From Thioalkalivibrio sp. ALE31 (GTDB lineage Bacteria; Pseudomonadota; Gammaproteobacteria; Ectothiorhodospirales; Ectothiorhodospiraceae), in the NCBI RefSeq assembly GCF_000377405.1, contig NZ_KB905022.1, positions 248,001 through 312,000 on the forward strand: a stretch of 64,000 nucleotides of DNA, read 5' to 3'. The notes under the pieces were generated by a model. It saw only the letters and a list, made by a program, of their open reading frames with translations, was not told the origin of the DNA and did no database searches. Numbering within the stretch: position 1 is the first letter of the stretch; every line of letters begins with the position of its first letter. A program made the translations under genes and the position numbers. Of the stretch, positions 3,468 to 53,986 are shown one piece after another.

Positions 3468-3558
3468 GGAGAGTTGGCCGAGCGGTCGAAGGCGCTCCCC
3501 TGCTAAGGGAGTATGGGTCAAAAGCCCATCGAGGGTTCGAATCCCTCACTCTCCGCCA
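3468..3558 (+). tRNA. tRNA-Ser (GCU)
   Basis: Class II tRNA of 91 nt including encoded CCA. The acceptor stem GGAGAGT pairs with ACTCTCC (3548-3554), with discriminator G. The anticodon arm is CTCCC-CTGCTAA-GGGAG, giving anticodon GCU. A long variable arm and a GGTTCGAATCC T-arm are present. The last 14 bases (3545-3558) are the attachment site of the downstream element and remain intact. Confidence 0.97.
3545..3558 (+). other. attL, 14-bp repeat inside the tRNA-Ser 3' end
   Basis: CTCACTCTCCGCCA forms the 3' acceptor strand plus CCA of tRNA-Ser and is repeated exactly at 12399-12412. Confidence 0.88.
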
Positions 3559-10187: not shown

Positions 10188-11063
10188 TTACCGGGCCGCC
10201 AGGAACCGGGACCATTTGGGATCGTTGCCTTCGGCCTGGTCACGCAGATAGTGCCGGGCCTTCTTGATCGTGTCAGGCGTGTAATCGATCGGTTCTGCGA
10301 CCAAGCGCAGTAGAGTTGCCATGTCTGTGTCATCAAGGCGGAAGGCCTTGAGGGGTGCGGTCCGCGGGTCAGCATCGGATTCAAGGGGGAGATGGCGACC
10401 CGCTTGCCGAAACTGCGCATGCCAGAGGATGCGCAGGAGTCGTCGAGGGCCGCGGTATCCTTCTGCGCTCGCGCGCATATCCGGATGGTCGGGTTCCGGA
10501 AAGGTCTCTGTGAAGCGGTCGGCCAAGCCCTGAAGCACTTCAGAGAGGGCGGGCCAGTATTTCCAATCGTACCTGTGGTCCAGGTGTTCAATGGGGGGCA
10601 GCGTGTGAGCTTCCGCGAGAAAGCGGGTTTGTGGGTCCGAATGAGTCAAACCGGCCATCAACCAATCCCAAGGGTTGCCGGCGGAGTTCACTGAAATCCC
10701 GTGCTCCGCGGCGACGGCATCGCGCTGTTCGATGAGGTTTGCCACTTCCCTCAGCTTCAACTCTATAGCTTGTTCGATATGTTCTACCTCCGCGGCCGCA
10801 TTCTCAGTTGCCTCGATCTCCCTCCGGTTTGCCAACCCCATCGGCACCAGAATTCCGTCCAGCAGGAATATCTGCCGATGAAAGGGCGGGGGAATCCCCT
10901 TCGCGAGGTTCGCGAACACGCGGACCATATCCGGGCGGTTACGGTCGGCCCGCATCTTCCGTGCGATGGCCCGCTCGCTCTTGAAGCTCGCGTGTTTCGT
11001 GACTTCCTCCAGCATCGGCCAGCCCCACTGTGCGGCGCGCTCCATGTCGGTCCGAGCGTTCAT
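10188..11063 (-). CDS. Hypothetical protein co-transcribed with the integrase
   Basis: 291 residues from ATG 11063, which overlaps the integrase stop by ATGA. It is a soluble, helical protein; residues about 85-115 (ATENAAAEVEHIEQAIELKLREVANLIEQ) form a coiled coil, and there are several Trp-rich segments. I know no named family. Translational coupling to the integrase suggests a role in integration, excision or maintenance, by position only. Confidence 0.78.
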   Translation of the reverse strand: MNARTDMERAAQWGWPMLEEVTKHASFKSERAIARKMRADRNRPDMVRVFANLAKGIPPPFHRQIFLLDGILVPMGLANRREIEATENAAAEVEHIEQAIELKLREVANLIEQRDAVAAEHGISVNSAGNPWDWLMAGLTHSDPQTRFLAEAHTLPPIEHLDHRYDWKYWPALSEVLQGLADRFTETFPEPDHPDMRASAEGYRGPRRLLRILWHAQFRQAGRHLPLESDADPRTAPLKAFRLDDTDMATLLRLVAEPIDYTPDTIKKARHYLRDQAEGNDPKWSRFLAAR

Positions 11064-12271
11064 GCGCCACCCCCGGCCGCGAATTCGGCCCATTCCTGCA
11101 TCAGCGCGCGGCGCTTCTCGAGCAGGTCTCCGCGGCGGTATGCGCGCTCCACCGCGTTGGGGATGACGTGGGCGAGAGCCATCTCGCAAACTTCGTTTGG
11201 GTAGCTGGTAGCTTCGGCGGCCCAGTCCCTGAAGGTTGAGCGGAAGCCGTGGGGTGTCGCGTCGACCTGCATGCGGCGCATCAGCGCGGAAAGGGCCATG
11301 TCCGAAAGGGGGCCGCCCTTCAGTGCTGGGAACACATACGGCGTCCCCTCCATGTGGGACAGGTGTTCGAGCAGGGCCAGAGCGTGTTCGGACAGGGGAA
11401 CAACGTGTTCCTTGCCCGCCTTCATCCGTTCCCCCGGCACAGTCCAGGTGCCGGCGGCGATGTCGATTTCATCCCACACAGCCCCGCGAACTTCACCGGA
11501 GCGGGCGGCCGTCAGAATCGTGAACTCCAGGGCTCGGGCGGCAGTGCCGCCGCGATCCCGCAGGGCGGCCATGAAGGCCGGGAGTTCCGGCCACGGAAGC
11601 GCCCGATGGTGTTTCACCTTCTTCAGCTTCGAGGGGGCGGGTAAGATAGCGTCCAGGTTGCCACGCCAACGGGCCGGGTTCTCACCCCGTCGATACCCGG
11701 ATACGGTTGCATAGTCGAGCACCTTCTCGATGCGGCCGCGTAGCCGGCTCGCGGTCTCGGGTTTCTCCCGCCAGATCGGTTCGAGCACCTGGAGGACGTG
11801 GGGGAGCTCCACGGTGTCGACTGGCAGCGGCCCCAGGGTCGGGGATGCGTAAGTGGCGAGAGTGGATTTCCACTGCGCAGCATGCTTCGCGTTCCGGAAT
11901 TCGGCGGCCTTCGAGGCTAGATAGCGCCCCGCGCATTCGTCGAATGTCAGCGCTTTGGCGTTGGCGACCAGAAGGGCGTTCTGACGTTCCTGTCGCTCAG
12001 CCAGCGGGTCGCGACCTTCTCGAATCGCCTGGCGCATTTCGCTGGCGACCTCGCGGGCGCGAGCCAGGCCTACTTCGGGGTATGCCCCTATACCGATTTC
12101 CCGCGGCCGGCCGGCGATGCGGGCCCGGAGCAGCCAGTACTTGCGGCCGGTCTCGGTGATGCGAAGTCGCAGCCCGGCGACCCCGCCCACGGAGTGTTCC
12201 CCGCGTCGGGTCAGCCGGCGAACGGCCAGCGCTGTTTTCTCCTCCGCCAAACGTGGCATCCCCCTATCCAT
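11060..12271 (-). CDS. int: P4-type tyrosine recombinase (integrase)
   Basis: 403 residues with the DUF4102-like N-terminal arm-binding domain (LRLRITETGRKYWLLRAR) and a C-terminal catalytic domain. Catalytic residues visible: R257 (TAARSGEVRG), H341 and R344 (HGFRSTFRDWA), H368 (MALAHVI) and nucleophile Y378 (ERAYRRGD). Two in-frame ATGs (12271, 12259) are possible; the second has AGGGGG directly upstream. It is the likely agent of insertion into tRNA-Ser. It lies about 130 bp from attR and is transcribed inward. Confidence 0.95.
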   Translation of the reverse strand: MDRGMPRLAEEKTALAVRRLTRRGEHSVGGVAGLRLRITETGRKYWLLRARIAGRPREIGIGAYPEVGLARAREVASEMRQAIREGRDPLAERQERQNALLVANAKALTFDECAGRYLASKAAEFRNAKHAAQWKSTLATYASPTLGPLPVDTVELPHVLQVLEPIWREKPETASRLRGRIEKVLDYATVSGYRRGENPARWRGNLDAILPAPSKLKKVKHHRALPWPELPAFMAALRDRGGTAARALEFTILTAARSGEVRGAVWDEIDIAAGTWTVPGERMKAGKEHVVPLSEHALALLEHLSHMEGTPYVFPALKGGPLSDMALSALMRRMQVDATPHGFRSTFRDWAAEATSYPNEVCEMALAHVIPNAVERAYRRGDLLEKRRALMQEWAEFAAGGGA

Positions 12272-12646: not shown

Positions 12647-14320
12647 TCAGGAGGGGGCGGGGCGGCCGAGATCGAGGCGGGGCCAGTCGCGCGGCAGGGA
12701 TTCCGGGGCGTGGGTCACGAGCAGGCACTGGCGCTGGTTCAGCCACGGGCCGATGCGGGACAGTACGCGCTCGAGGGTCCTCGGGTCGAGGCCGGCGAAG
12801 GGTTCATCGAGCAGGACGACGGGACGGTCCTGAAGGAGGATCGCCGCCAGGGCGAGCCGGCGCCGCTGGCCGCCGGAGAGGTACGAGCCAGCTTCGCCGA
12901 TGCGGTAGTCCAGGCCTTCTTCCGTGCCACGCACGGCATCCGCCAGATCCACCTGCTCCAGAGCCTCCCACAGGGCCGCATCGCTGAGATGTGTGTGACG
13001 CGGCTCCAGGATGTCGCGGAGGGAGGTGTCCGGCAGTTGCAGCCCCTGAGGCAGGTAGCTGAGATGGCGGTACCGGGTGTCGGCCGAGATTCGATCGAGA
13101 TCGTCGCCGCCAAGCGCGATGCGCCCGGTCAGGGGCGGCAGTTCGCCGGCGAGGGTGTCCAGAAGCGTGCTCTTGCCGCGCCCGCTGGTCCCGCTGATCA
13201 CCAGTGGACGGCCACGCGCGGGGGCGAGGTCCAGGGGGCCGAGCAGCGGGCGTTCGCGGTGAAAGCCGATGGTCAGGCCGTGGGCCTGCAGCACGGGGGC
13301 GTGGTCGGCAGGGGCCGGGCGTGCGGCCCCTGCCGGGGCCTGCCCGGCTGCTTCGAGATGCTGCACGCGCCCGGCGGCCTTCAGGCTCTCGCCGGCACGC
13401 CACCACGCCCCGGGCAGGCTGCCGAGGACCTCGCCCAATCCCAGGGTCATCAGCGGCAGCAGTACCGCCACAGGCGCGCTCAGGGTCCCGTCGCGGTACC
13501 AGCCCAGGGCGAGAACCAGCATCAGCAGCGCGGATGCGCCGACCACGGCCTGCACGGCCTGTTCGGACCCGACGCCGAACGCCTCCTGGGCGCGTTGCTG
13601 GCGCGCGTAGGTCGCGTTCTCGCGGCGCAGCGAGGCCTCGTGTCCGCGCGCGCGGTCGTAGGCCAGAAGCTCGGCCAGGCCGCCAATGTAGTCGAACAGC
13701 CCGATGCGTTCGCGCGCCCGGGCCTGCACCAGCGCGTGGCTGCGGCGCTGCCCGGCCAGTGCAAGCAGCGCGGAGACGGCAAGTGTTGCAAGACCGGAGA
13801 CGGCGAGCACGGCCGCGGCGGGCCAGGGCGCCAGCCAAATGGCGATGACCAGCGTGACCACGAGGCTGATGGCCGCGGCGACCATCGGTCCGACCACCCG
13901 CAGGGGCATCCCATCGAGGGTGTCGATGTCGCTGGTCAGGCGGGTCTGCAGGTCGCCACTGCGGTAGGCGCGAACGCGTGCCATGGGCAGTGCGGCGAGC
14001 CCGCGGAAGCTGTGGCCGCGCAGATCGGCCAGGCTGCGCAGCACCGCCTCGTGACTGACCAGACGCTCGAAATAGCGTGCCAGGGTGCGGCTGATCGCGG
14101 CGGTACGGATGCCACCGGACGGTACGTAGAGGTCCAGGGTGGCCAGAAGTCCCGCGCCGGCCAGCGCGGTCGCGGTGATAAACCAGCCGGACAGCGCCAG
14201 CAGGGCGATCCCGGCGATCCAGGTCAATGCCAGCAGGCCCCAGGCGCCCCAGTACCAGACGCGGCGCCGGCGGAAGACGCGGTGCAGAAAAGCGAGGTTG
14301 GCGCGGGTTTCGTCACGCAT
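12647..14320 (-). CDS. cydC: ABC transporter CydC, thiol exporter for bd oxidase assembly
   Basis: 557 residues: an N-terminal membrane domain of six helices and a nucleotide-binding domain with Walker A GTSGRGKST, signature YLSGGQRRRLALA and Walker B PVVLLDEPFAGLD. With CydD it forms a heterodimer exporting cysteine/glutathione, needed for cytochrome bd maturation. ATG 14320 overlaps the cydD stop by 8 bp. It is the last gene of the sqr-cydD-cydC operon. I see no T-rich terminator after it. Confidence 0.92.
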   Translation of the reverse strand: MRDETRANLAFLHRVFRRRRVWYWGAWGLLALTWIAGIALLALSGWFITATALAGAGLLATLDLYVPSGGIRTAAISRTLARYFERLVSHEAVLRSLADLRGHSFRGLAALPMARVRAYRSGDLQTRLTSDIDTLDGMPLRVVGPMVAAAISLVVTLVIAIWLAPWPAAAVLAVSGLATLAVSALLALAGQRRSHALVQARARERIGLFDYIGGLAELLAYDRARGHEASLRRENATYARQQRAQEAFGVGSEQAVQAVVGASALLMLVLALGWYRDGTLSAPVAVLLPLMTLGLGEVLGSLPGAWWRAGESLKAAGRVQHLEAAGQAPAGAARPAPADHAPVLQAHGLTIGFHRERPLLGPLDLAPARGRPLVISGTSGRGKSTLLDTLAGELPPLTGRIALGGDDLDRISADTRYRHLSYLPQGLQLPDTSLRDILEPRHTHLSDAALWEALEQVDLADAVRGTEEGLDYRIGEAGSYLSGGQRRRLALAAILLQDRPVVLLDEPFAGLDPRTLERVLSRIGPWLNQRQCLLVTHAPESLPRDWPRLDLGRPAPS

Positions 14321-16031
14321 GGGGTGTCTCCGGCGTGACCGGCGCCAGCTCCAGCTGTTGCGGGCAGCGCCGGTGGATGGCGGCATGATGGCTCGCGATC
14401 ACCAGCGTCAGGCCACGGGTGTCGGCCAGCCGGAACAGCGTGTCCAGGAGTGCCTCTTCGGTCTTCACGTCGAGCGCGCTGGTCGGTTCGTCGAGCAGCC
14501 AGAGGCGGTGCCCGGAGAGCAGTGCGCGCGCGACGGCGACCCGCTGGGCCTGGCCGCCGGAGAGGCCGTGCCGGGCCTCGCCGATGGCGGTGTCCAGGCC
14601 GTCGGGGAGCTCGGGCGCGTCGAGGGGTAACCCGGCCTGTTCCAGTGCCGTGGCCATCTCGGCATCGGGGATCATTGCATGGCGGGCCAGCTGCAGGTTT
14701 TCGCGCAGGCTACCGTGGAACAGATGGGCATCCTGGTCGATCCAGGCGAAATGGCGGGCCCGGGCATGGCGTTGAATGCGGCCCTCGGTGGGGGGCAGAA
14801 AGCCGGCACATACCGCCAGAAGGGTGGATTTTCCGCTGCCACTGGGGCCGGTCAGTGCGAGATGCGCCCCCGCTTGAATCTCGAGGTCGAGATGCTTGAG
14901 GACCGGTGTGCGCTGACCCGGGTAGTGCACCATCACATCCTCGAGTTTCAGCAAGGGGTCGGTCTCGTCCCCGCCGGTGACCTCGGTGACCGCGGCTGAA
15001 GCCTCGGCCCCGTTGGGCGAAGCAAGCGCGGGAGCGAGGCTCTCGGCGGCGGCCAGCGCACCGGCGCGGTCATGGTAGCTCTGGGCGAACTGGCGCAGGG
15101 GCAGGAAATACTCCGGCGCCAGCAGCAGGATGAACAACCCGGTGAACAGGGTGATGTCCCCGGCCGGGCCATAGTCGATGGCGCCGAACAGGGCGAAGCC
15201 GATGTAGATCGCGACCATGCCGATCGCGACCGCGCTGAAGAACTCCATGATCGCCGAGGACAGGAATGCGACCCGGAGGGTGCGCATGGTCAGGCGGCGT
15301 TGCTGGTGGCTGCGCTCGACGACCTCGATCTCGGTGGCCGTGATGGCGCGGGCCCGGCGCAGCCAGTCCAGGCTGCGGATGCGGTCGAGGAAGTGCCCCG
15401 CCAGACGGTTGGCCTCCTCTTGCTGACGCCGGTGGATCTGTTCCGCACCCATGCCGACGATCGCCATGAAGGCCGGGATCAGCGGGGCGGCGAGCAGCAA
15501 CAGCAGGGCGGCGAGCCAGTCCAGCCAGAAGGCCGCGGCCAGGATGGCCAGTGGCGTCAGGATGACCGCCTGGCGGGCCGGCAGGTAACGCGCATAGTAG
15601 CCGGTCAGGTCATCCACCCGCGTCTGGAACTGCTCCGCCCAGGCGCCCGCGGTCGTCTGTCCGGCCAGGCGCGCGGGTCCGGCATGCCGGACCTGTTGCA
15701 GGAGATCGGTGCGCAGCTGCTGCTTGACCGCAAAGGCGAGGCGGTGTCCCGCCAGGTCGCGCAGGGCCTGGGCGGCATAGCGCAGACCGAGCAAGGCGAG
15801 GCCGCCCAGCAGGATGCCCGGCAGGTACGGGGGGTCGGCGGCGAACAGCGTGCCGTGCACCGCCCAGGCCACGAGCCCCGCCAGCGCAATGGTCGCCAGC
15901 GTGGCCACCAGCGTGCTGGCGGCACTGAGCACCAGCCAGTGGCGGTGTGGCCGTTGCCGTGCGCGCAGCCATGGCCCCGGCGCGGCACGGTGGTCCGGCG
16001 GCGGGGCGCCTGTTTCGCCCGGTTGCGGCAT
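14313..16031 (-). CDS. cydD: ABC transporter CydD, partner of CydC
   Basis: 572 residues with membrane helices in the first 330 residues and an ATPase domain: Walker A GPSGSGKST, signature GLSGGQAQRVAVARALL, Walker B LWLLDEPTSALD. It begins only 4 bp after the sqr stop, so sqr, cydD and cydC form one transcript. The operon link to a bd oxidase reading the other way supports the CydDC assignment over other exporters. Confidence 0.92.
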   Translation of the reverse strand: MPQPGETGAPPPDHRAAPGPWLRARQRPHRHWLVLSAASTLVATLATIALAGLVAWAVHGTLFAADPPYLPGILLGGLALLGLRYAAQALRDLAGHRLAFAVKQQLRTDLLQQVRHAGPARLAGQTTAGAWAEQFQTRVDDLTGYYARYLPARQAVILTPLAILAAAFWLDWLAALLLLLAAPLIPAFMAIVGMGAEQIHRRQQEEANRLAGHFLDRIRSLDWLRRARAITATEIEVVERSHQQRRLTMRTLRVAFLSSAIMEFFSAVAIGMVAIYIGFALFGAIDYGPAGDITLFTGLFILLLAPEYFLPLRQFAQSYHDRAGALAAAESLAPALASPNGAEASAAVTEVTGGDETDPLLKLEDVMVHYPGQRTPVLKHLDLEIQAGAHLALTGPSGSGKSTLLAVCAGFLPPTEGRIQRHARARHFAWIDQDAHLFHGSLRENLQLARHAMIPDAEMATALEQAGLPLDAPELPDGLDTAIGEARHGLSGGQAQRVAVARALLSGHRLWLLDEPTSALDVKTEEALLDTLFRLADTRGLTLVIASHHAAIHRRCPQQLELAPVTPETPHA

Positions 16032-16034
16032 TGA

Positions 16035-17420
16035 CTAGCGCAGGTAGCGCCCGCGCAGCATGTTGAAGTACAGCGGCTTAATCATATGCACCTTCAGGCG
16101 CCACCACATCCAGCTGGGTTCCCCCTGGTCGAGGAAGCTGAAGGTCGGCACCTCCTGCAGGGTGTAATCGAATTCCACCAGCGCGGCCTTGCCCACTTCG
16201 GTGATCAGCGGGCAGGAGGTGTAGCCGTCGAACTGCCGCGACGGTTCGCGATCCTGGATCACGTCCACCAGGTTGTCCGGCATCACCGCGCCATGCGAGC
16301 GCACGGTGGAGGCGGTCTTGCCGATCGCGGTCGCGACGACGTCGCCGGCGCCGAAGATGTTCGGGTAATCCGTATGCTGCAGCGTGCGGTCATCCACCGC
16401 CAGCCAGCCTCCGGCCGCCAGGGGACCGTCCTCCACCGCCAGCCCGGCGTCACGCACAAAGTCGTGCGCGCGCATCGGCGGGGTCACGTGGAGATAGTCG
16501 TAGTCCACCGTCTCGCGCCCGCCGTCGCGGGTCTCGAACTGGGCCTGGCGGGCGTCGACATCCACCGCCACCAGGGCACCTCCGTCATTCACGCTCACGC
16601 CGCGTTCCGCATACAGGTCGCGCACCATGCGGTCAAAGCGCTGCACGCTGAACAGGGTGTCCGACCCCGTGTGATAGTGGAAATCGGCCCCGGCGCGCTG
16701 ACCGGCCGAGCGCAGCAGGTCATCGGCGATGAAGGTCGCCTTGATCGGCGCCCCGGCACACTTGATCGGCGTATTGGGGATGGTAAACCGCGCCACCCCG
16801 CCGTTCTCGCCGAACGCATGGATCTGTTCGTAGGCATCACGCGCGGCCTCGGCGCTGGCATACAGGCTGGTCAGGCCGGGACGCCCGATATCCTCGCGGC
16901 GCAACCCTTCGATGGCTTCAAAGTCCAGGTGCAGCCCGGTGGCGACCACCAGGAAGTCGTAGTCCAGCCGGTCGCCGTCGGTCGTCTCGACCCGTTGCGA
17001 TTCGGGATCGATGGCCGCCACCGCGGAGCGCACCCAGTCGACGCCGCGCGGGATATAGCGTTCATTGCGGCGCTGGACCTCGCCCACGGAATAAACGCCC
17101 GCGGCCACCAGGGTCCAGCCGGGCTGGTAATGATGGATCTCGCTGGGCTCGACGATGGTGATGCGTGCGCCGTCAAGCAGGTCGCGCAGGCGGGCGGCCA
17201 TGGTCATGCCGGCGGCCCCGCCACCGAGCACCACGATGCGCGCCTGGCTGGAGACCGCCGCGCGGGCCGGGGCGGCCTGCACGCCAGTCGCCGACACCAG
17301 GCCGGCGGCACCGGCGATCTTCAGGAAATCGCGCCGGGACAGTCCTCGCAAGGTCTCCCGGGCCTGCCGGGCCAGGGCCTGGTCAATCTCGGGGTGCTTC
17401 GGGTCTTCGGGCTGATGCAT
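16035..17420 (-). CDS. sqr: Sulfide:quinone oxidoreductase, type II, Tat-type leader
   Basis: Oxidises sulfide and passes electrons to quinone. 461 residues from ATG 17420, preceded by GGAGAGAG. The N-terminus has a twin-arginine-like leader (LSRRDFLKIAGAAGL) not usual in mitochondrial SQOR. A FAD-binding GGGAAGM motif follows. NTPIKCAGAPIKA and GYTSCPLITE contain the two redox cysteines of human-type SQR, and the amphipathic C-terminus (KPLYFNMLRGRYLR) resembles the membrane-binding end. It is first in the sqr-cydDC operon and is driven from the divergent control region. Confidence 0.9.
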   Translation of the reverse strand: MHQPEDPKHPEIDQALARQARETLRGLSRRDFLKIAGAAGLVSATGVQAAPARAAVSSQARIVVLGGGAAGMTMAARLRDLLDGARITIVEPSEIHHYQPGWTLVAAGVYSVGEVQRRNERYIPRGVDWVRSAVAAIDPESQRVETTDGDRLDYDFLVVATGLHLDFEAIEGLRREDIGRPGLTSLYASAEAARDAYEQIHAFGENGGVARFTIPNTPIKCAGAPIKATFIADDLLRSAGQRAGADFHYHTGSDTLFSVQRFDRMVRDLYAERGVSVNDGGALVAVDVDARQAQFETRDGGRETVDYDYLHVTPPMRAHDFVRDAGLAVEDGPLAAGGWLAVDDRTLQHTDYPNIFGAGDVVATAIGKTASTVRSHGAVMPDNLVDVIQDREPSRQFDGYTSCPLITEVGKAALVEFDYTLQEVPTFSFLDQGEPSWMWWRLKVHMIKPLYFNMLRGRYLR

Positions 17421-17515
17421 GGCTCTCTCCGCGTATCCGTCTGCCGCTCCGGGGACCGGGCGGGCCAGTTCTGAGGGTCGCGCCGTCTGCCGGGCGCTTC
17501 GTGTGACGGAATGCT

Positions 17516-17531
17516 TACAAGTTGCATGCCA
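17516..17531 (-). promoter_or_regulatory. Sigma-54-like promoter for sqr-cydDC
   Basis: On the minus strand TGGCAT-GCAAC-TTGTA matches the -24/-12 layout TGGCAC-N5-TTGCW with the correct spacing; the -12 GC is GT. It lies about 95 bp upstream of the sqr start. The facing promoter at 17720 has the same deviation. Confidence 0.68.
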
Positions 17532-17584
17532 ACACCGGCAGACCGCCCCGTCGGGGCCTGGGCGCCCGTGCTGGCGGTGACGGC

Positions 17585-17631
17585 CTGCCATAAATGGCAG
17601 TCCCCTGTAGCCCGGCTGCCAAAAATGGCAG
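17585..17631. promoter_or_regulatory. Two palindromic activator sites between the divergent promoters
   Basis: CTGCCA-TAAA-TGGCAG at 17585-17600 and CTGCCA-AAAA-TGGCAG at 17616-17631: identical 6-bp arms, identical 4-bp spacers in length, centres 31 bp apart (three helical turns). Such paired sites are typical upstream activating sequences of sigma-54 enhancer-binding proteins. A degenerate third copy (TGCCA-ACAC-CGGCAG, 17527-17541) overlaps the sqr-side promoter. Confidence 0.8.
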
Positions 17632-17719
17632 AACCGGGGCGGCGTTGGCGGGCGTTGGCCAGGCGCCAAGACACGGACCAGTCGCCTGCAGCGCGCCGCC
17701 GGGGTCCGGACCGGAACTC

Positions 17720-17735
17720 TGGCACGGTACTTGTT
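17720..17735 (+). promoter_or_regulatory. Sigma-54-like promoter for cydAB
   Basis: TGGCAC-GGTAC-TTGTT: a perfect -24 box and a near-consensus -12 box (GT for GC) at the correct spacing, 54 bp upstream of the cydA start and about 97 bp from the nearer palindrome centre. Confidence 0.75.
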
Positions 17736-17788
17736 AGGGGTTCATCGATACGTCATCCCGGCGTGCCCCTGATAACGGAGGAAAGGCC

Positions 17789-19195
17789 ATGGAGCTCGAC
17801 CCCATACTACTCTCGCGAATCCAGTTCGCGTTCGTGGTTTCGTTTCACGCGATCTTCCCGGTGTTCACGATCGGGCTGGCTTCGTTTATCGCGTTTCTGG
17901 AATTTCGCGCCTGGAAGACCGGTGACACGATCTATACCCAGATCTCGAAGTTCTGGATCAAGATCTTCGCGGTGGTCTTCGGTATGGGCGTGGTCTCCGG
18001 CCTGGTGATGTCGTTCCAGTTCGGAACCAACTGGAGTGCGTTCTCCTATGCCACGGCCAATTTCCTCGGGCCGGTGCTGTCCTACGAGGTGCTCACCGCA
18101 TTCTTCCTGGAGGCGGCGTTCCTGGGCGTGCTGCTGTTCGGGCGTGACCGGGTGCCGCAGGGCGTGCACCTGTTCTCGGCCCTGATGGTCGCGCTGGGCA
18201 CCTTCATCTCGTCGTTCTGGATCCTGGTGGCCAACAGCTGGATGCAGACACCGGTCGGCTTCGAGCTGCAGGACGGGGTGTTCCATGTCACGTCCTGGAT
18301 CACGGCGATCTTCAACCCGAGTTTCTGGCCGCGCTTCTTCCACATGGGGCTGGCCTCTCTGCTTACCGCCGGCTTCGTGGTCGCCGGGGTCTCCGCCTGG
18401 TACCTGCTGCGCCAGCGCGACGTGGTGATGAACCGCAAGGCCCTGGGCACCACCATGTGGGTGCTGCTGTTCGCGGCACCGGCGCAGCTGGTGGTCGGTG
18501 ATATCCACGGCCTCAACACCTTCGAGCATCAGCCGACCAAGGTGGCGGCGATGGAAGGCGTGTGGGAGACCGAGCGCGGGGCGCCGCTGCTCTTGTTCGC
18601 GATCCCGGACTCGGCCAACGAGACCAATCACTTCGAGATCGGTATCCCGAAGATGGCGAGCTTCATCCTCACCCACGAGATGGACGGGGAAGTGCCTGGC
18701 CTGCTGGAGGTTCCGGCCGAGGAACGTCCGCCGGTGGGCATCACCTTCTGGTCGTTCCGCGTGATGGTGGCGATTGGCATGGTGATGATCCTGTTCGCGC
18801 TGGCGGGTGCCTGGCTGCGCTTCCGCCGCCGGATGTATGCCTCGCCGCTGTTCCTCAAGGGGCTGGCCTGGATGATCCCGGCGCCGTTCCTGGCGGTGGT
18901 CGCGGGCTGGTTCGTGACCGAGACCGGGCGCGCGCCCTGGCTGGTCTACGGCGTGATGAATCATGCCGAGGGCATTACCCCGGCCCTGACCGGTGGCATG
19001 GCCCTGTTCACCCTGATCGGCTATGTGGCGGTCTACGCGGCGGTGTTCACCGGGGGCGTCTACTACCTGGTGCGCATCGTGCGTCAGGGCCCGGAACCGG
19101 CCGATGCCGTGCATGCGCCGGCGCACGCCAAGCGTCCGCTGTCGGCCGCTGACACCTTCGTCGATGACGCCGCGGTCAGCGGTGCAAGGAGCTAA
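17789..19195 (+). CDS. cydA: Cytochrome bd-type quinol oxidase subunit I
   Basis: 468 residues, about nine membrane helices, short Q-loop (CIO-like). Haem ligand candidates: His20 (SFHAIFP) and the His of FFHMGLAS. Glu residues of the proton path appear in SYEVLTAFFLEAAFLG, and quinol-site residues in HQPTKVAAMEG. The signature usually written GRQPW is GRAPW here, an uncommon Gln-to-Ala change. Start ATG 17789 follows CGGAGGAAAGG. It transfers electrons from quinol to oxygen; bd oxidases tolerate sulfide, matching the divergent sqr. Confidence 0.95.
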   Translation: MELDPILLSRIQFAFVVSFHAIFPVFTIGLASFIAFLEFRAWKTGDTIYTQISKFWIKIFAVVFGMGVVSGLVMSFQFGTNWSAFSYATANFLGPVLSYEVLTAFFLEAAFLGVLLFGRDRVPQGVHLFSALMVALGTFISSFWILVANSWMQTPVGFELQDGVFHVTSWITAIFNPSFWPRFFHMGLASLLTAGFVVAGVSAWYLLRQRDVVMNRKALGTTMWVLLFAAPAQLVVGDIHGLNTFEHQPTKVAAMEGVWETERGAPLLLFAIPDSANETNHFEIGIPKMASFILTHEMDGEVPGLLEVPAEERPPVGITFWSFRVMVAIGMVMILFALAGAWLRFRRRMYASPLFLKGLAWMIPAPFLAVVAGWFVTETGRAPWLVYGVMNHAEGITPALTGGMALFTLIGYVAVYAAVFTGGVYYLVRIVRQGPEPADAVHAPAHAKRPLSAADTFVDDAAVSGARS

Positions 19196-19198
19196 GTG

Positions 19199-20203
19199 AT
19201 GGAAACCACGATCGATATCACGCTGATCTGGGTCGTCATCATTGCCGTGGGCGTGATCGCCTACGTGCTGATGGACGGGTTCGACCTCGGGGTGGGGATC
19301 CTCTTCCCCTTCGCCCCGGGGGAGACCTCGCGCGACGTGATGATGAACTCCGTCGCCCCGGTGTGGGACGGCAACGAGACCTGGCTGATCCTCGGCGGCG
19401 CGGGCCTGCTGGCCGCCTTCCCGCTGGTGTACTCGGTGTTCCTGCCGGCGCTTTATATCGGGGTCTTCCTGATGCTGGCGGGGCTGATCTTCCGCGGCGT
19501 GGCCTTCGAGTTCCGCTTCAAGGCGCACCGCTCCAAGGGCCTGTGGAACGCCGCCTTCGCGGTCGGCTCGGCGGTGGCGGCCTTCGCCCAGGGCGCGGTA
19601 GTGGGTGCCTATATCCAGGGCTTCGAGATGGACGGCTTCAGCTTCGCCGGCGGTCCGCTCGACTGGCTGACGCCGTTCACCGTCCTCACCGGCATCGGGC
19701 TGCTGGCGGGCTATGCCCTGCTGGGCGCGACCTGGCTGATTGTGAAGACCGAGGGTGATACCCAGGCCTTTGCCTATCGGGTGGCGCCCTGGATGCTGGC
19801 GGTCGTGCTGCTGGTGTTCGGCGCGGTGAGCCTGATTACCCCGTTCATCGACCCGAAGGTGATGGAGCGCTGGATGGGGACCTGGCAGTACCTCTGGGTG
19901 CTCCCGGCGCTGGCGCTGTTCTCCGCCTGGGTCCTGATCCGCGCGGTGCGCCGGCGAGATGAAGGGATCCCGTTCGTCGCCACGATTGCCCTGTTCATCA
20001 CCACCTACCTGGGACTGCTGGTGAGCAAGTGGCCGTACGTGGTGCCGCCGGACTACACCTTCTGGGATGCCGCCTCCTCGCCGGATGCGCAGCTGTTCAT
20101 TCTGGTGGGGGCGTTGTTCGTGATCCCGATCATCCTGGGCTACACCGCCTGGACCTACTGGGTCTTCCGCGGAAAGGTGACCCCGGAGACCGGGTATCAC
20201 TAG
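19199..20203 (+). CDS. cydB: Cytochrome bd-type quinol oxidase subunit II
   Basis: 334 residues, eight or more membrane helices, with the family motifs [10 protein letters not shown] near the N-terminus and [19 protein letters not shown] 19199 is chosen over the GTG one codon earlier because AAGGAG is better spaced. It starts 3 bp after the cydA stop. No small CydX-like gene follows in the 145-bp gap before the regulator. Confidence 0.95.
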
Positions 20204-20348
20204 GCGGGAGCGTCCGGCGCGTGCCACAGGGCCGTTCGGGAATGCGCGAGTCCGCCATTCAGGACACCCATCCTCGCGGCTGCAGGGAGCCGGCAGCGGG
20301 GCAGGGTCCGGATGGCGGGCCGTCAGGTCACCAGTAAGGGGTGATGCC

Positions 20349-21830
20349 ATGGTGTTGAACATCGCTCGGTTGAACGTGTCTATGGGACAGCGTGACGGCG
20401 TCGGTCCCGGCGTCGGATACGCCTTCCAGGACCCCTTGTTGCGAGGCGACGTGACCAGCATCCCGAAGAAGGAGTCGGCACCCCTGGACCCCCACGTGGG
20501 GACCCTGCGCCAGGTGCTGGAGGTATTTCGTGAACCGGCCATCCTGCTGTCCCCGGATTATCGGATCCTGGCGGCCAATGGCGCCTACCAGCGCATCTAC
20601 GGGACTGATCGCGATGGCTCCGGTCGCACCTGCTTCGAGGCCTCCCATGGCTTCCGCCGCCCCTGCGACGAGGCGGGGGAGTCCTGCCCCCTGCGGGCCG
20701 CGCTGGGCAGTGGCCACCGCGAACGCGTGCTGCACGTGCATCACACCGAGGCCGGGCGCGAGCACGTGGACGTCGAGTTGCTGCCGATCCGGGATGCTGA
20801 CGGGGAGATCCGTTACCTGATCGAACGCCTGCATCACCTGCCGGTGTCTGCGCCACAGGCGGGCAGCGGCGGGCTGGTCGGTCGCTCCAGGGCCTTCAAT
20901 GCCATGCTGGGGATGATCAGCCGGGTGGCGCCGAGTAATGCGTCGGCCCTCCTGCTTGGCGAGTCCGGCACGGGCAAGGAACTCATCGCCCGCGCGATTC
21001 ACGAGGCGAGTCCGCGGCACAAGTCGCCGTTCGTGCCCGTGGAATGTTCGGGGCTGACCGAAACCCTGTTCGAAAGCGAGCTGTTCGGCCACGAGCGCGG
21101 TGCCTTTACCGGCGCCGCGTCGGCCAAGGCCGGGCTGGTCGAGGCGTCAGCCGGGGGCACCCTGTTCCTGGACGAGGTGGGGGATATCCCGCTGAGCCAG
21201 CAGGTCAAGCTGCTGCGGCTGCTGGAGACCCATGCCTATCGCCGGGTCGGAGGCGTCGAGTCGCGGCGGGCGGATTTCCGCCTGGTCTGCGCGACCCACC
21301 GCGACCTCGAGTCCATGGTGCGTGCCGGCGAGTTTCGCGAGGACCTCTACTACCGCATCAACACCTTTCCGATCGAGGTGCCCCCGCTGCGCGAGCGGGT
21401 GGAGGACATCCCGTTGCTGCTGGAGGCCCTTGGCGAGCGCCTGGATCTGGTCGTGCCACCGCGCCTGGAAGACGAGACGCTGAGAGTTCTCGAGCAGTAT
21501 TCCTTCCCCGGCAATGTGCGCGAGCTGCGCAACATCCTCGAGCGCGCGGCCTTGCTGGCAGACGGCGAGGCGATCCGTCCGGAACACCTGCCGGACCGCG
21601 TGCGGCAAGGCGGTCCGTCCCCGGTCGGGGCCAGGACTGGCGGACTGGAAGGGTTGCTGCACCCGCAGTCACTGCGCCCGCTGGACGAGATCGAGCGCGA
21701 GTACCTGCGGCACGCGGCTGCGGTGTACCCCGGGGACCGCCGTGCGCTGGCAAGGACCCTCGGGATCAGCGAGCGCAGCCTGTACCGCCGTCTGAGCCAG
21801 CTGGAGGGCGACGCCGACGAGCAAGACTGA
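20349..21830 (+). CDS. Sigma-54-dependent activator with Cys-rich PAS domain
   Basis: 493 residues. N-terminal PAS domain (about 55-140) containing Cys-x10-Cys-x6-Cys ([12 protein letters not shown]...ESC), a plausible redox, metal or sulfur sensor. Central AAA domain with [21 protein letters not shown] (the sigma-54 contact loop) and [13 protein letters not shown]-terminal Fis-type HTH ([17 protein letters not shown]). There is no receiver domain, so it senses directly or through a ligand. It lies downstream of cydAB and is the likely reader of the palindromes at 17585-17631; this link is inferred from position. Confidence 0.9.
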
Positions 21831-21833
21831 AAG

Positions 21834-21873
21834 TGCCCGGGCGGGTCGGGTAACGCGTCTCGCCCGGGTTTAA
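21834..21873 (+). terminator. Weak terminator after the activator gene
   Basis: CCCGGGCG ... CGCCCGGG stem (21836-21843 with 21861-21868) followed by TTTAAA; the loop is 17 bases and the T-run is short. Confidence 0.5.
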
Positions 21874-21999
21874 ACGACGTCCGCGTGGGCGGTCGGACGT
21901 CCGGCCACTGCCTGTCACAAGGGACGGGAGTGGTGAGATACCGCCATAAGCATCAGTAAAACACGATATTCCAATACAGCTTAAAGACCGGAGTCTCTG

Positions 22000-22656
22000 A
22001 TGAAAAAGACCGCAATGACCCTCTCCCTGTCCGCCGCCCTACTGGCGACCCCGATGCTGGCCGCTGCCGAGCCCCTTTCGTTTGGCGAGCAACAGACCAT
22101 CCGCTCCATGGCCAGTGCCGGGGTCGGGCAGGCCATCGTCAACCAGATGGGCGCCGGTTCGATGGCCGTGATCAATAATCCGTCACCCATCTGTGGTGCC
22201 CTGGCGGGTGGCCTGGGCGCATCCATGCTCTCGGCCGATCCGCGGGCGGGCTTCCAGATCGCGACGCTGCGCTCCGGCGAGGATGCCGCCGCCGCGGTGC
22301 ATGTGACCGCGGACAAGGACGTGGCCTACCTGGCGCTGGGGGGCGAGCTGGATCGCGATGAGAACGTGGCGCTGGCCCACGCCTACCTGCAGGAGCTCGC
22401 CGCCTCGGAGTGGGACGGCACCCTGGTGCTGCACATCTCCTCGTGGATGCAGAAGCAGGTCCAGGCTGTCGCGGAGGCCGACGAAGCGGTGGCTGACTAT
22501 CTGGAAGGGCTCCGCATGGTGGCGCTCCAGCCCGACCTGGAGGCGGGTCAGGCGGTGATGCTGGGCGTGAACTTCGATGGCGACGGCTTCACGACCGAGG
22601 AGATGGGTCGTCAGGACATGCGTGAAGACCTGGTGGACTTGTTCCGTCGCATGTAG
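22000..22656 (+). CDS. Secreted/periplasmic protein of unknown function
   Basis: 218 residues with a signal peptide (MKKTAMTLSLSAALLATPMLAAAEP). The mature part has an acidic C-terminus, with FDGDGFTTEEM resembling a single calcium-binding loop, though an isolated loop is weak evidence. I do not recognise the family. Upstream lies a moderately AT-rich 170-bp gap that probably holds its promoter. It is a single gene between the activator and the peroxiredoxin. Confidence 0.8.
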   Translation: MKKTAMTLSLSAALLATPMLAAAEPLSFGEQQTIRSMASAGVGQAIVNQMGAGSMAVINNPSPICGALAGGLGASMLSADPRAGFQIATLRSGEDAAAAVHVTADKDVAYLALGGELDRDENVALAHAYLQELAASEWDGTLVLHISSWMQKQVQAVAEADEAVADYLEGLRMVALQPDLEAGQAVMLGVNFDGDGFTTEEMGRQDMREDLVDLFRRM

Positions 22657-22834
22657 GCCCGTGGTCAGCGGGCTGGGGCAGGGGCCGTCTTGCCTGGCCC
22701 GCTTTAGTGAAAAACTATCGTTGCGTTAAGAAATAAGTAATTCACTATATTCGGGTCGACAGATAAAGTAAGACGTACATGGAGGCACGACCCCATGAAC
22801 GACCCGATCAAACTTTCAAAGCAAGGAGTACATC

Positions 22835-23461
22835 ATGGCACTGCGTTTGGGCGATACCGCACCGAATTTCCAGATTGACACCACCAAGGGCAAGATCGAC
22901 TTCCACGAATGGATTGGCGACTCCTGGTGCTTCTTCTTCAGCCACCCGGCCGACTTCACCCCGGTGTGCACCACCGAGATGGGCCGTACCGCGCAGCTGG
23001 CCAAGCAGTTCGCGGACCGCAACACCAAGCCGCTCGGGCTGTCGACCGACACGGTCGAGGAGCACAACAAGTGGATCGAGGACGTCAACGACACCCAGAA
23101 CACCACGCTGGAGTTCCCGATCGTCGCCGACGCCGACAAGAAGATCTCGGAGCTCTACGAGATGATTCACCCGGGCGAGAGCGAGACCGCCGCCGTACGC
23201 TCGGTCTACATCATCGACCCGAACAAGAAGATCCGGCTGATGATGACCTACCCGATGTCGGTGGGCCGCAACTTCGACGAGATCCTGCGCGTGATCGATG
23301 CGCTGCAGACCGGTGACCAGCACGGCATCGCGACGCCGGCCGACTGGACCCCGGGTGCTCGCGTGATCATCCCGCCGACGGTCAGCAACGAAGATGCGCA
23401 GAAGAAGTTCCCGCAGGGCTTCGAGGAGATCCGCTCCTACCTGCGCTACACCCAGGTCTAA
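22835..23461 (+). CDS. 1-Cys peroxiredoxin (Prx6 type)
   Basis: Reduces hydrogen and organic peroxides. 208 residues; peroxidatic Cys45 lies in HPADFTPVCTTE, and no conserved resolving Cys is seen in the C-terminal half (the only other is Cys32). The C-terminal domain FPQGFEEIRSYLRYTQ is typical of the Prx6 group. AAGGAG lies 8 bases before ATG 22835. An AT-rich stretch (22705-22760) upstream probably carries its promoter. A strong terminator follows. Confidence 0.95.
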   Translation: MALRLGDTAPNFQIDTTKGKIDFHEWIGDSWCFFFSHPADFTPVCTTEMGRTAQLAKQFADRNTKPLGLSTDTVEEHNKWIEDVNDTQNTTLEFPIVADADKKISELYEMIHPGESETAAVRSVYIIDPNKKIRLMMTYPMSVGRNFDEILRVIDALQTGDQHGIATPADWTPGARVIIPPTVSNEDAQKKFPQGFEEIRSYLRYTQV

Positions 23462-50190: not shown

Positions 50191-50865
50191 TTACTCGCCG
50201 CGGGCCGGCAGGGAGGCGTAGTAGGCCGCGAGTGCCGCCATTTCTTCCTCTTCCAGTTCGCTCACGATGCCCTGCATCAAGCCGGCAAGGGACGTCTCGC
50301 GCGCGCCGTGGACATAGGCCTGGAGCTGTGCCATCAGATAGCGGGGCGGGTGGCCGGCCAGCGGCGGCAGGCTGGGGTTCCGTTCGCGTCCTTCGTCCCC
50401 ATGGCAGGAGGCGCAGGACTGGACGTTGCGTTCCGGCAATCCTGCAAGGGCAATCTCGCGCCCTCGTTCCGCCAGATCGCCCGGCACGTCATGCGGGCCG
50501 CCCGCCGGTTCCATCTCCGCGTAGTGCCGGCTGATCGCTTCGATCTCTTCGTCGTTCAGGTGCTGGGCGATCCGCGCCATGGTGGCGTTCGGGCGCAGGC
50601 CGTCCCGGTAGGCCTCCATCTGCTCCACCAGGTATTGCTCCGGCAGCCCCGCCAGGCGCGGGAACGGCGGCTGCGACTGGCCCTGACCCTGTTCGCCATG
50701 GCACTGGATGCAGGCGGTCGCCCCGCGGTCGTTGCCTTCCTGGGCAATGCGTGCACCGAGGTCCTCGTCCCCGCTGGCACTGGCCGTCGGCAGACCCAAC
50801 GATGCCGCGGTCAGTGCGAGCCAGGCGACTGCGCCGAGGGGTTGGTGGAGGCGTGCCACGCGCAT
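50191..50865 (-). CDS. Dihaem cytochrome c4
   Basis: Electron carrier in the periplasm feeding terminal oxidases. 224 residues with a signal peptide (GAVAWLALTAASLGLPTASA) and two haem sites CIQCH and CASCH, each followed by the c4-type pattern PFPRLAGLPEQYL / SLPPLAGHPPRYL; axial Met residues lie further on (NATMARIA and GLMQGIV). It starts 14 bp after the HIT gene stop, so they probably share a transcript. Confidence 0.93.
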   Translation of the reverse strand: MRVARLHQPLGAVAWLALTAASLGLPTASASGDEDLGARIAQEGNDRGATACIQCHGEQGQGQSQPPFPRLAGLPEQYLVEQMEAYRDGLRPNATMARIAQHLNDEEIEAISRHYAEMEPAGGPHDVPGDLAERGREIALAGLPERNVQSCASCHGDEGRERNPSLPPLAGHPPRYLMAQLQAYVHGARETSLAGLMQGIVSELEEEEMAALAAYYASLPARGE

Positions 50866-50879
50866 GGCATTGGCGTTGT

Positions 50880-51419
50880 TCAGGCCGTGTCGGTGCGTAC
50901 GCCCGGGTGGGCATGGCGGTGGTAGTTCGCGCGATCCGGGATGACGTTGCGGATGCCGCCGCGAGGGTCTTCGACGTCGCCCGCGTAGCGCGGCAGCAGG
51001 ATCACGTGCAGGTGGTCGATGCTGCGCCCGGCCATGCGGCCGTCGTTGTTGCCGACGGTATAGGCATCGGGCGGATTGCCCAGGAAGGGCAGGTCCAGGA
51101 CGTTGTCGATGTGGTCCTTGGGGCGCTCGCGCAGGTCTTCGCGGACGCGCATGTTGCGGTACAGCTTTTCCAGGTCCGTGGCTTCGATGACCCGGCGCAC
51201 GCCGTGAAGCGCGTCGAAGTAGTCCGCCTGTTCGGTGTCGTCGAGGTCGAACAGGGAGACCACGTGGCGCCGGGGAATGACGAGTGCGTGCCCGGGGTTG
51301 ACCGGATTGGTGTCGAACAGGGCGACGAACGAGCGGTTCTCGTAGATCAGCGGGTCGGCCAGGCCGGCGGATACCCGGCAGAAGTAGCAGTTCGGGGTGA
51401 CTGGTTGGGCACTGGTCAT
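50880..51419 (-). CDS. HIT-family protein
   Basis: 179 residues. Cys pair CYFC at the N-terminus, NPGHALVIPRRHVVSL, and the active-site segment SIDHLHVILLPRYAGD. The histidine triad is reduced to HLHV followed by hydrophobics, as in several HIT subfamilies that hydrolyse or bind nucleotides. Located upstream of cytochrome c4 on the same strand. Confidence 0.87.
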   Translation of the reverse strand: MTSAQPVTPNCYFCRVSAGLADPLIYENRSFVALFDTNPVNPGHALVIPRRHVVSLFDLDDTEQADYFDALHGVRRVIEATDLEKLYRNMRVREDLRERPKDHIDNVLDLPFLGNPPDAYTVGNNDGRMAGRSIDHLHVILLPRYAGDVEDPRGGIRNVIPDRANYHRHAHPGVRTDTA

Positions 51420-51928: not shown

Positions 51929-53986
51929 ATGTCCATGCCACTTTCCGGCCTCGTGTTTGCGCTGCTGTGCGGCGTTGTCGCGCTGGTCTACGGTCTGTTG
52001 TCCATCCGCTGGGTACTTTCGCGATCGGAGGGTACCGACGAGATGCGGCGGATCGCCCGCGCGATCCAGGAAGGCGCCTCGGCCTACATGAAGCGGCAGT
52101 ACACGACCATTGCAGTGGTCGGGGTGGTGCTGTTCGTAGGGCTGTGGCTGGTGATCGGCATCGGCTCCGCGGTCGGGTTTCTGATCGGTGCCGTGCTTTC
52201 CGGGGCCGCCGGGTTCATTGGCATGCATGTGGCGGTGCGCGCCAATGTGCGCACGGCGGCGGCTGCGAAGTCGAGCCTGGAGGCGGCGATGGATGTGGCC
52301 TTCCGCGGGGGCGCGGTGACCGGCCTGCTGGTGGTCGGGCTCGGGCTGCTGGGGGTGGCGGGCTATTTCGCCGTGCTCTGGTGGCTGACACCGGAGGGGG
52401 GCGATGTGGGACTTTCGCCCCTGGTCGGGCTGGCCCTGGGCGGTTCGCTGATCTCCATCTTTGCCCGTGTGGGCGGTGGCATCTTCACCAAGGGCGCGGA
52501 TGTCGGGGCGGACCTGGTGGGCAAGGTCGAGGCCGGTATTCCGGAGGATGACCCGCGGAACCCGGCGGTGATCGCCGACAACGTGGGCGACAACGTGGGC
52601 GACTGCGCCGGGATGGCCGCGGACCTGTTCGAGACCTATGCAGTGACCATCATCGCGACGATGATCCTGGGCACGCTGCTGATTCCCGAGCTGGGGCTGA
52701 TGGCCGCGGTGTATCCGCTGGTGCTGGGCGGCGGCGCGATCCTGGCCTCGATCGTCGGTACCTTCGTGGTCAAGGCGCGCGAGGGTTCCGAGATTATCCG
52801 GGGGCTCTACAAGGGGCTAATCGTCTCGGGGGGGCTGGCTGCCGTGGCATTCCTGCCCATTACCCTGGTGCTGGTTCCGGATACCGCGCTGGCCAACAAC
52901 ATGGGCATCGAGAGCGGGGCCGCGCTGCGCCTGTACGGGGCGGCACTGGTGGGGCTGGTCCTGACCGGCGTCATTATGGTGGCGACGGACTACTACACCT
53001 CCACGGTCTTCCGGCCGGTTCGCCATCTGGCCGAGGCCTCCACGACCGGTCACGCGACCAACATCATCGCCGGGCTGGCGCTGTCGATGAAGGCGACCGC
53101 CGCGCCGGTGCTGGCGGTGTGCGCCGCCATCCTGGTGGCCTATGCCTTTGGCGGGCTCTACGGCATCGCGATCGCCGCGACCACGATGCTGTCGATGACC
53201 GGGATCATCGTGGCGATGGATGCCTACGGTCCGATCACGGACAACGCCGGTGGCATCGCGGAGATGGCCGACTTGCCCTCCGAGGTTCGGGATACCACCG
53301 ATGCGCTGGATTCGGTGGGCAACACCACGAAGGCCGTGACCAAGGGCTATGCCATCGGCTCGGCGGGCCTGGCGGCACTGGTGCTGTTTGCCGACTACAC
53401 CCACGAGCTGGTGCATTACACCGGGGGTGGGCACAACTTCGAGCTGAGCAATCCGAACGTGATCGTGGGCCTGTTTATCGGCGGCCTGATCCCGTACCTG
53501 TTTGCGTCGATGACCATGGAGTCGGTCGGCCGCGCGGCCTCCGGCATCGTGAACGAGGTGCGGCGCCAGTTCCGCGAGATCAGCGGGATCATGGAGGGCA
53601 CCACGAAGCCGGACTACACTCGAGCCGTGGATATGCTCACCAGCGCGGCCATCCGCGAAATGATCGTGCCCTCGCTGCTGCCGGTGCTGGTCCCCGTTCT
53701 GGTCGGCGTGTTCCTGGGTACCGAGGCCCTCGGGGGGCTGCTGATCGGGACGATCGTGACCGGGCTGTTCGTGGCGATCTCGCAGACCGCGGGCGGCGGC
53801 GCCTGGGACAACGCGAAGAAGTACATCGAGGACGGGCATCACGGGGGCAAGGGGTCGGAAGCGCACCATGCCGCAGTGACCGGCGACACGGTCGGTGACC
53901 CCTACAAGGACACCTCGGGGCCCGCGATCAACCCGCTCATCAAGGTGCTGAACATCATGGCGCTGCTGCTCGTGCCCGTTCTGTAG
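51929..53986 (+). CDS. hppA: Membrane H+-translocating pyrophosphatase
   Basis: Hydrolyses pyrophosphate and pumps protons. 685 residues, about 16 membrane helices. Catalytic loop [20 protein letters not shown] and [20 protein letters not shown]. The [10 protein letters not shown] segment has Lys and Thr at the positions that make the enzyme K+-independent. ATG 51929 follows AAGGGGGAGC. It may recycle pyrophosphate from biosynthesis, useful to energy-limited autotrophs. Confidence 0.97.

Follow-up and report, generated by a model that had tools for sequence, protein, structure and literature searches.

In the window analysed here, a stretch of 64,000 nucleotides from Thioalkalivibrio sp. ALE31, a gene for sulfide:quinone oxidoreductase (SQR) followed by cydD and cydC faces away from cydA, cydB and an activator gene, and a spacer of 368 bp separates the sqr start codon (17420, minus strand) from that of cydA (17789, plus strand). 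This arrangement raises the question of whether sulfide oxidation and respiration through cytochrome bd are placed under a single switch and, if so, which regulator and which signal would operate it. We propose, with a probability of roughly 0.8, that the two operons share an enhancer in this spacer, from which a FisR-type activator encoded downstream of cydB would drive two divergent sigma-54 promoters, and that SQR, cytochrome bd and CydDC would thereby be raised together on polysulfide or persulfide. The features of the locus are collected in Table 1.

Table 1. Genes, dyads and promoter-like boxes of the sqr–cydA locus, in window coordinates.
Feature	Position	Strand	Sequence	Remarks
cydC, CydDC exporter subunit	12647..14386	-		NCBIfam TIGR02868, 335.8 bits (cut-off 329.05); start codon uncertain
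cydD	14313..16031	-		NCBIfam TIGR02857, 481.8 bits (cut-off 435)
sqr, sulfide:quinone oxidoreductase	16035..17420	-		near mitochondrial type; first gene of sqr-cydD-cydC
left sigma-54-type promoter, for sqr-cydDC	17517..17531	-	TGGCATGCAACTTGT	-12 = TTGT; predicted start ~17505
third, degenerate dyad copy	17526..17541		ATGCCAACACCGGCAG	2 mismatches; probably not functional
dyad 1, likely FisR operator	17585..17600		CTGCCATAAATGGCAG	exact match; conserved; enriched upstream of FisR homologues
dyad 2, likely FisR operator	17616..17631		CTGCCAAAAATGGCAG	exact match; conserved; enriched upstream of FisR homologues
right sigma-54-type promoter, for cydAB and probably fisR	17720..17734	+	TGGCACGGTACTTGT	predicted start ~17746
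cydA, cytochrome bd subunit I, short (468 aa)	17789..19195	+		Pfam Cyt_bd_oxida_I, 543 bits
cydB	19196..20203	+		Pfam Cyt_bd_oxida_II, 322 bits
fisR-like sigma-54 activator gene	20349..21830	+		PAS_4 with C95, C106 and C113; AAA+ with GAFTGA; Fis-type HTH

Both subunits of a cytochrome bd oxidase, CydA and CydB, are present as judged from their Pfam matches, and the genome encodes one CydA and, above the family cut-off, one heme-copper oxidase subunit I. CydDC, encoded after sqr, is a maturation factor of cytochrome bd. The SQR aligns with human mitochondrial SQR (E ~7e-85), including both cysteine stretches, KCAGAP and YTSCPL, and mitochondrial SQR is also its closest solved structure; we take the enzyme to be type II-like. 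Its N-terminus carries the twin-arginine motif SRRDFLK with a TAT_signal match, and the motif recurs in seven of the eight relatives' SQRs, the eighth (L134) being an over-extended ORF. The SQRs of L034, L049, L052, L070 and L080 also start with twin-arginine-like stretches (SRRDFLK or RRRWLQ). Such N-termini suggest export, with sulfide oxidation on the periplasmic side.

The surroundings of the locus include a phage-type integrase gene just beyond cydC (11060–12271, minus strand), and the locus may thus adjoin a mobile segment; the sole tRNA of the window lies at 3468–3558. Downstream of fisR are an ORF without Pfam or NCBIfam match (22000–22656, plus strand), kept in L131–L135, and a peroxiredoxin gene with a 1-Cys C-terminal domain (22835–23461, plus strand), kept in L131–L136. 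No dyad within three mismatches lies before either of them.

Within the spacer, the two CTGCCA-N4-TGGCAG dyads claimed in the earlier note were recovered as exact matches whose starts are 31 bp apart, and the 16-mer has no further exact copy anywhere in the 2.77-Mb genome. If one mismatch is allowed, 15 dyad places are found genome-wide, versus 19 for a reversed-pattern control; near-copies are no commoner than the control and therefore only the exact pair stands out. The pair is flanked by two outward-facing boxes which, as had likewise been claimed, have identical spacing and the same deviation, TTGT, at -12; the distance from dyad 2 is 85 bp to the left box and 89 bp to the right one. Sigma-54 promoters have the -24/-12 consensus TGGCAY-N5-TTGCW with fixed spacing. 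In both boxes the -24 element and the spacing match this consensus, and the -12 element reads TTGT versus TTGC. The same TTGT is found in 5 of 20 box-like matches of the genome, both boxes of the spacer included, and the genome encodes one RpoN. Two more sigma-54-like boxes lie elsewhere in the window, at 50865–50880 (plus strand, TTGTT at -12) and at 53339–53354 (minus strand, TTGGT).

The third, degenerate copy of the dyad that was said to overlap the left promoter is present, but it is not conserved. It carries little weight because the window has 11 matches at up to two mismatches, against 4.56 expected by chance. The left sigma-54-type box takes in its left half, and outside the box 1 of its 10 positions is invariant in the seven closest genomes; at two mismatches it is listed in the window and L131–L133 and unlisted in L134–L138. 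On these grounds we rejected it as a conserved element. Scans for other types of site returned little. No FNR-type box was found at up to two mismatches in 17421–17788, and FNR/ANR control of the spacer was rejected on this basis; the sole IHF site match in the spacer is one with two mismatches at 17774, and no sigma-70 match was found in 17300–22800.

Comparison with relatives sets these elements apart from their surroundings. Nine of 30 genomes of the genus, our own included, have fisR beside cydAB and sqr on the far side of the spacer; in seven of the nine sqr is followed by cydDC, which was not found beside it in L137 and L138. All nine carry both dyads, 30–31 bp apart and with 0–3 mismatches (the second dyad of L136, with a 3-base spacer, is visible in the alignment and absent from the motif listing), so that the palindromes are indeed present in close relatives that keep the locus. 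Both boxes are also found in all nine; in seven genomes the -12 of either box reads TTGT, and the other two have TTGA (right) and CTGT (left). When the seven closest genomes (the window and L131–L136) were aligned, invariance was seen at 20 of 24 positions in the half-sites and at 25 of 30 in the boxes (13 of 15 left, 12 of 15 right), compared with none of the eight positions in the dyad spacers and 55 of 292 in the rest of the spacer.

The activator has PAS_4, Sigma54_activat and HTH_8 domains above the Pfam cut-offs, and its translation contains GAFTGA. We rejected NorR, the NO-responsive sigma-54 activator, as its identity: the NCBIfam NorR model scores 272 bits with a cut-off of 476, and Pfam lists no GAF domain in the protein, with PAS_4 found instead. 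By sequence the activator is FisR-like. Its gene adjoins sulfide-oxidation genes, sqr starting 2.9 kb from fisR in an arrangement kept in nine genus members, and the protein has a C-x10-C-x6-C pattern formed by C95, C106 and C113. All three cysteines are found in 102 of 103 aligned sequences, the window included, and the exception (L008) has CSC. The third cysteine also belongs to FisR of Cupriavidus pinatubonensis, and it is found in the homologue from C. metallidurans (L161), which is 52% identical to the window activator over residues 53–485. The C95–C106 distance of 11 residues equals that of C53–C64 in Cupriavidus FisR, a pair which, according to the available part of PMC8614764, forms a tetrasulfide. 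FisR of A. baumannii works without conserved cysteines, as stated in the accessible text of PMC7315123; the cysteine pair thus does not define all FisR proteins, nor do all of them work by the cysteine mechanism.

The distribution of the dyad connects it with FisR. When the regions upstream of 102 FisR homologues were scanned de novo for all half-sites of six bases at spacers of 0–14, CTGCCA-N4 ranked first with 12 loci; the runners-up, CTGCCA-N14 and the shifted frame TGCCAT-N2, reached six loci each, and the best unrelated motif four. The dyad was then counted, with a spacer of 3 or 4, in a first set of loci chosen by likeness to the window FisR (79 of 80 genome-contig loci, those with at least 250 bp upstream), with 119 permuted half-sites and 780 random windows as controls; FisR homologues are mutually related, so that neither loci nor genomes are independent in these counts. 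The exact dyad was found in 17 of 79 loci; each of the 119 permutations scored 0, as did the 780 random windows. With one mismatch allowed the count was 30 of 79 (permutation maximum 3; random 2 of 780) and at up to two mismatches 57 of 79 (permutation maximum 12; random 68 of 780), which leaves 22 of 79 homologues without even a two-mismatch dyad. A second draw of 370 genomes of the class contained a FisR match at E ≤1e-115 in 35; exclusion of G000 and G023 left 33, and removal of four duplicates of the first set left 29 new loci. In these, exact dyads and dyads with up to one and up to two mismatches numbered 2, 6 and 14, versus permutation maxima of 0, 2 and 4. The enrichment repeats in the second set and is clearly weaker there than in the first. 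Because the exact dyad lies upstream of 17 of 79 FisR homologues and no permuted half-site does so, CTGCCA-N4-TGGCAG is likely the FisR operator. A survey of 47 family genomes gave 24 places with the exact 16-mer, eight of them within 3 kb of fisR (two each in G000 and G023, one each in G013, G014, G025 and G040); the other 16 are close to the count of a control pattern (15).

Sigma-54 boxes are directed away from fisR in 54 of 80 loci of the first set and toward it in 3, and in the second set the counts are 13 and 0 of 29. The distance from dyad to box in 39 pairs is 82–88 bp in 18 and 104–110 bp in eight, near whole helical turns. At -12, the 39 dyad-paired boxes of the first set have TTGA (23), TTGC (11), TTGG (4) or CTGA (1), and 10 of 13 boxes of the second set have TTGC; these variants, mostly TTGA and then TTGC, led us to reject GT at -12 as a general mark of FisR promoters. 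A strict dyad-plus-box search of 369 genomes of the class, with an allowed gap of 40–70, returned a single match, the left promoter of our own genome. Taken together, the enrichment of the dyad upstream of FisR homologues and the footprints of its halves and of the boxes support the proposal of the earlier note that one activator, encoded next to cydB, uses the paired dyads to act on both sigma-54 promoters.

FisR control of cydAB does not seem to hold everywhere, as 11 sister species with cydAB away from fisR have no sigma-54 box before cydA and, among them all, a single weak dyad match. Across the 30 genomes of the genus, with fisR called at E <1e-140 and relatedness left uncorrected, 20 have both fisR and cydA, two fisR only, one cydA only and seven neither; the two fisR-only genomes are 77% (G027) and 58% (G031) complete, and among the 23 genomes that are at least 90% complete the respective numbers are 16, 0, 1 and 6. 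In 12 of the 21 cydA genomes, cydAB lies far from fisR, on another contig or in a genome without fisR. The cydA upstream regions of 11 of these were compared (G034, with a partial gene, was left out); ten of the 11 carry fisR, and G038 does not. No sigma-54 box was found within 500 bp upstream of cydA in any of the 11 (216 bp only in L204), and the single dyad match in these regions has two mismatches and lies at -378 in L202, which leaves FisR control of cydAB located away from fisR unsupported. In L200–L210 a stretch resembling GCGAATCGTTTGCAA is conserved upstream of cydA and might be a Fur-type site.

A dyad-like site is located near the start of fisR itself in 13 of 14 further loci of the family (12 of the genus and 2 of another; L144 is without it). 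It has one mismatch in 11 cases and two in L140 and L141; in seven of the 14 loci it lies 26 bp before the fisR start, and in L148, L150 and L152 it is found inside an over-extended ORF start. This position fits autoregulation. Since the dyad occurs near fisR starts but is all but absent before distant cydA genes, the operator is, on this comparison, one that tracks FisR and not cydAB as such, and the bd link was gained or lost within the genus. In the nine intact loci the palindrome goes with sqr, cydAB and the activator gene; the fisR–cydAB link is not universal in the genus. At the 11 loci of cluster c7, which belong to other species of the genus and include L141 and L145, fisR adjoins an RNA ligase gene (RNA_ligase and Lig_C, by Pfam on L141 and L145); of ten gene picks near fisR in the sister loci, three were given families.

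Linkage of fisR to cytochrome bd extends beyond this genus. In 38 of 80 homologues, a count in which neighbours on some short contigs could be missed, cydA is divergent from fisR and less than 3.5 kb away, and in a looser scan a dyad lies between the two genes in 31 of the 38, and 30 have a box less than 300 bp from cydA. The same divergent arrangement is found in 10 of 29 loci of the second set and on two Pseudoalteromonas plasmids. In Ottowia thiooxydans (L049), one strand facing fisR carries cydA, cydB, sqr, a small ORF, a persulfide-dioxygenase-like metallo-beta-lactamase gene, whose product has ETHE1 among its PDB matches, and a globin gene; in C. metallidurans, CTGCCAACTTGGCAG and TGGCACGGGTTTTGA lie beside fisR, on the side of the SQR match. 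The CydA proteins of fisR loci fall into two subtypes, short (13 rows) and long (36 rows). On a quick FisR tree with 33 of 100 inner branches open, the distribution of CydA type needs four changes, three of them forced by well-supported branches, and the close relatives L058 and L070, joined at a support of 88, differ in type. As CydA type varies among close FisR relatives, it seems that the bd enzyme was replaced and the regulator kept. The FisR homologues L029, L041, L067, L069, L072 and L075 adjoin Rieske, persulfide-dioxygenase-like or CcoG/FixG-like genes, which were assigned by cluster with Pfam or NCBIfam run on single members; neighbours came from greedy ORF calling, which includes some antisense ORFs and covers all loci except L066. 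Such neighbours indicate that other respiratory parts may also be FisR targets.

From the observed sites, their conservation, the gene linkage and the architecture of the protein we infer binding, inducer, co-expression and physiology as follows. Sulfide oxidation would give rise to polysulfide or persulfide, which, by homology, would modify the PAS cysteines of FisR. Bound to the two dyads, whose distance is about three helical turns, FisR would remodel RNA polymerase–sigma54 at both promoters by looping, and SQR, cytochrome bd and the CydDC exporter would be raised together. Electrons from sulfide would then enter the quinone pool via SQR and leave it through a sulfide-tolerant bd oxidase, bypassing the sulfide-sensitive heme-copper oxidase. 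In addition, fisR is probably co-transcribed from the cydA promoter, with positive feedback as the likely result, because the cydB–fisR gap is short (145 bp in the window, 22–25 bp in L134–L136) and, in the window, free of terminator-like and sigma-70-like matches. A separate FisR site before fisR was rejected for the window, as this gap contains no dyad at up to two mismatches and a single three-mismatch match at 20290. Comparison of genomes gives good support to the type of regulator, the operator and the two promoters, and the inducer and the physiology would follow from homology. Of the Sqr-to-bd bypass under sulfide that was proposed earlier, the shared switch is supported by comparison, but the signal is likely sulfane sulfur (polysulfide or persulfide), the inducer of FisR, rather than sulfide as such.

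Could the dyads instead bind another regulator, encoded elsewhere, with FisR acting on other sites or on one operon only? The 22 of 79 FisR loci without a dyad at up to two mismatches would agree with this. However, the dyad precedes FisR genes whatever faces them, be it cydA, the persulfide-dioxygenase-like metallo-beta-lactamase gene of L069 or others, it all but disappears before cydA when cydAB lies away from fisR, and exact copies in our own genome are confined to the sqr–cydA spacer; we regard this explanation as quite improbable. It appears very unlikely that a chance or inactive sequence accounts for one sigma-54 box or for both, and that unseen promoters transcribe the operons while the dyads repress them. 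The TTGT in place of TTGC at -12 of both boxes is consistent with such an arrangement, and the sister-species site 26 bp before the fisR start (7 of 14 loci) would fit repression of fisR. Yet both boxes are recognisable in nine of nine genomes and 25 of their 30 positions are invariant in seven, boxes are directed away from fisR in 54 loci versus 3, 28 of the 39 boxes paired with a dyad have a -12 other than TTGC (though no more than 3 of 13 do so in the second set), and the interval 17300–22800 has no sigma-70 match.

A real switch might also respond to a signal that is not derived from sulfide, such as low oxygen, NO, CO or cyanide, with sqr merely carried along. According to the literature available in part, bd oxidases protect against several poisons; many homologues with fisR facing cydAB have no match to the window SQR among the listed neighbours, and the A. 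baumannii FisR is described in the accessible text of PMC7315123 as lacking the sensing cysteines. Against this, all nine members of the genus that keep the locus have sqr immediately opposite, on the other side of the spacer, genes for SQR or persulfide-dioxygenase-like proteins also adjoin FisR homologues, 102 of 103 sequences have the sulfane-sulfur cysteines, and 17421–17788 has no FNR-type box within two mismatches. We consider a signal of this kind unlikely and favour activation of both operons by FisR in response to sulfane sulfur.

Parts of this arrangement are familiar from other systems. In the hyc–hyp intergenic region of E. coli, FhlA acts from one activator region on two divergent sigma-54 promoters; the window shares this layout and differs in that the FhlA system concerns formate and hydrogenase and has another sensor and operator. 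FisR of Cupriavidus pinatubonensis is reportedly a sigma-54 activator of sulfide-oxidising genes, as Li et al. are said to have described in Mol Microbiol in 2017. Like it, the window FisR is a sigma-54 activator beside sulfide oxidation whose PAS cysteines keep the 11-residue tetrasulfide distance, and the C. metallidurans homologue has the same dyad, with a 3-base spacer, and a box on the side of its SQR match. Unlike Cupriavidus FisR, for which the title names sulfide-oxidising genes, the window FisR is predicted to target cydAB and cydDC as well, its two operons share one enhancer, and its gene follows cydB and does not face the target.

For A. baumannii, the available text of Walsh et al. 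2020 (PMC7315123) describes a FisR-dependent pdo-sqr operon and a rise of cydAB with sulfide, and its authors predict a link between SQR and CydAB through the quinone pool. Unlike the window FisR, that protein lacks the sensing cysteines, and in this text cydAB is reported as sulfide-induced, not as FisR-dependent; sulfide is also said there to induce cytochrome bd in several bacteria. Local regulators have been described for bd oxidases that show sulfide phenotypes, namely the GbsR-type CydE (PMC6096048) and a MarR-family regulator (PMC11837568). As far as the accessible parts of these papers go, both resemble the window activator in being dedicated to a sulfide-protective bd oxidase and differ from it in belonging to other families, not to the sigma-54 activators. 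A point mutation upstream of cydA2B2 raises its expression in Cupriavidus necator (PMC10164946), and FisR is unmentioned in the available part of that paper. We found no FisR–cydAB link in the accessible parts of PMC12316311, PMC5744179, PMC5328954, PMC12170894, PMC8148161 and PMC9495516. The open-access literature, as far as its available text goes, yielded neither FisR tied to a cydAB promoter nor CTGCCA-N4-TGGCAG as FisR operator, both of which could be in subscription papers such as Li 2017, nor a sigma-54 sulfur sensor named as inducer of cytochrome bd.

With modest confidence, we lean towards FisR being more than a regulator of sulfide detoxification, namely a widespread respiratory switch of Beta- and Gammaproteobacteria that would select cytochrome bd as terminal oxidase when sulfane sulfur rises, with CTGCCA-N3/4-TGGCAG marking its regulon and short and long CydA swapped underneath. 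For our bacterium and some of its relatives, the locus suggests that a poison-resistant oxidase is switched on together with sulfide oxidation; if true, electron entry (SQR), electron exit (bd) and bd maturation (CydDC) would be built from one signal in a sulfur oxidiser. A defined operator and a linked activator make sulfide induction of bd directly testable, and would make FisR regulons readable from sequence. Set beside the known systems, FisR itself is familiar, and what appears to be new is a FisR switch with a regulon that extends to terminal-oxidase choice.
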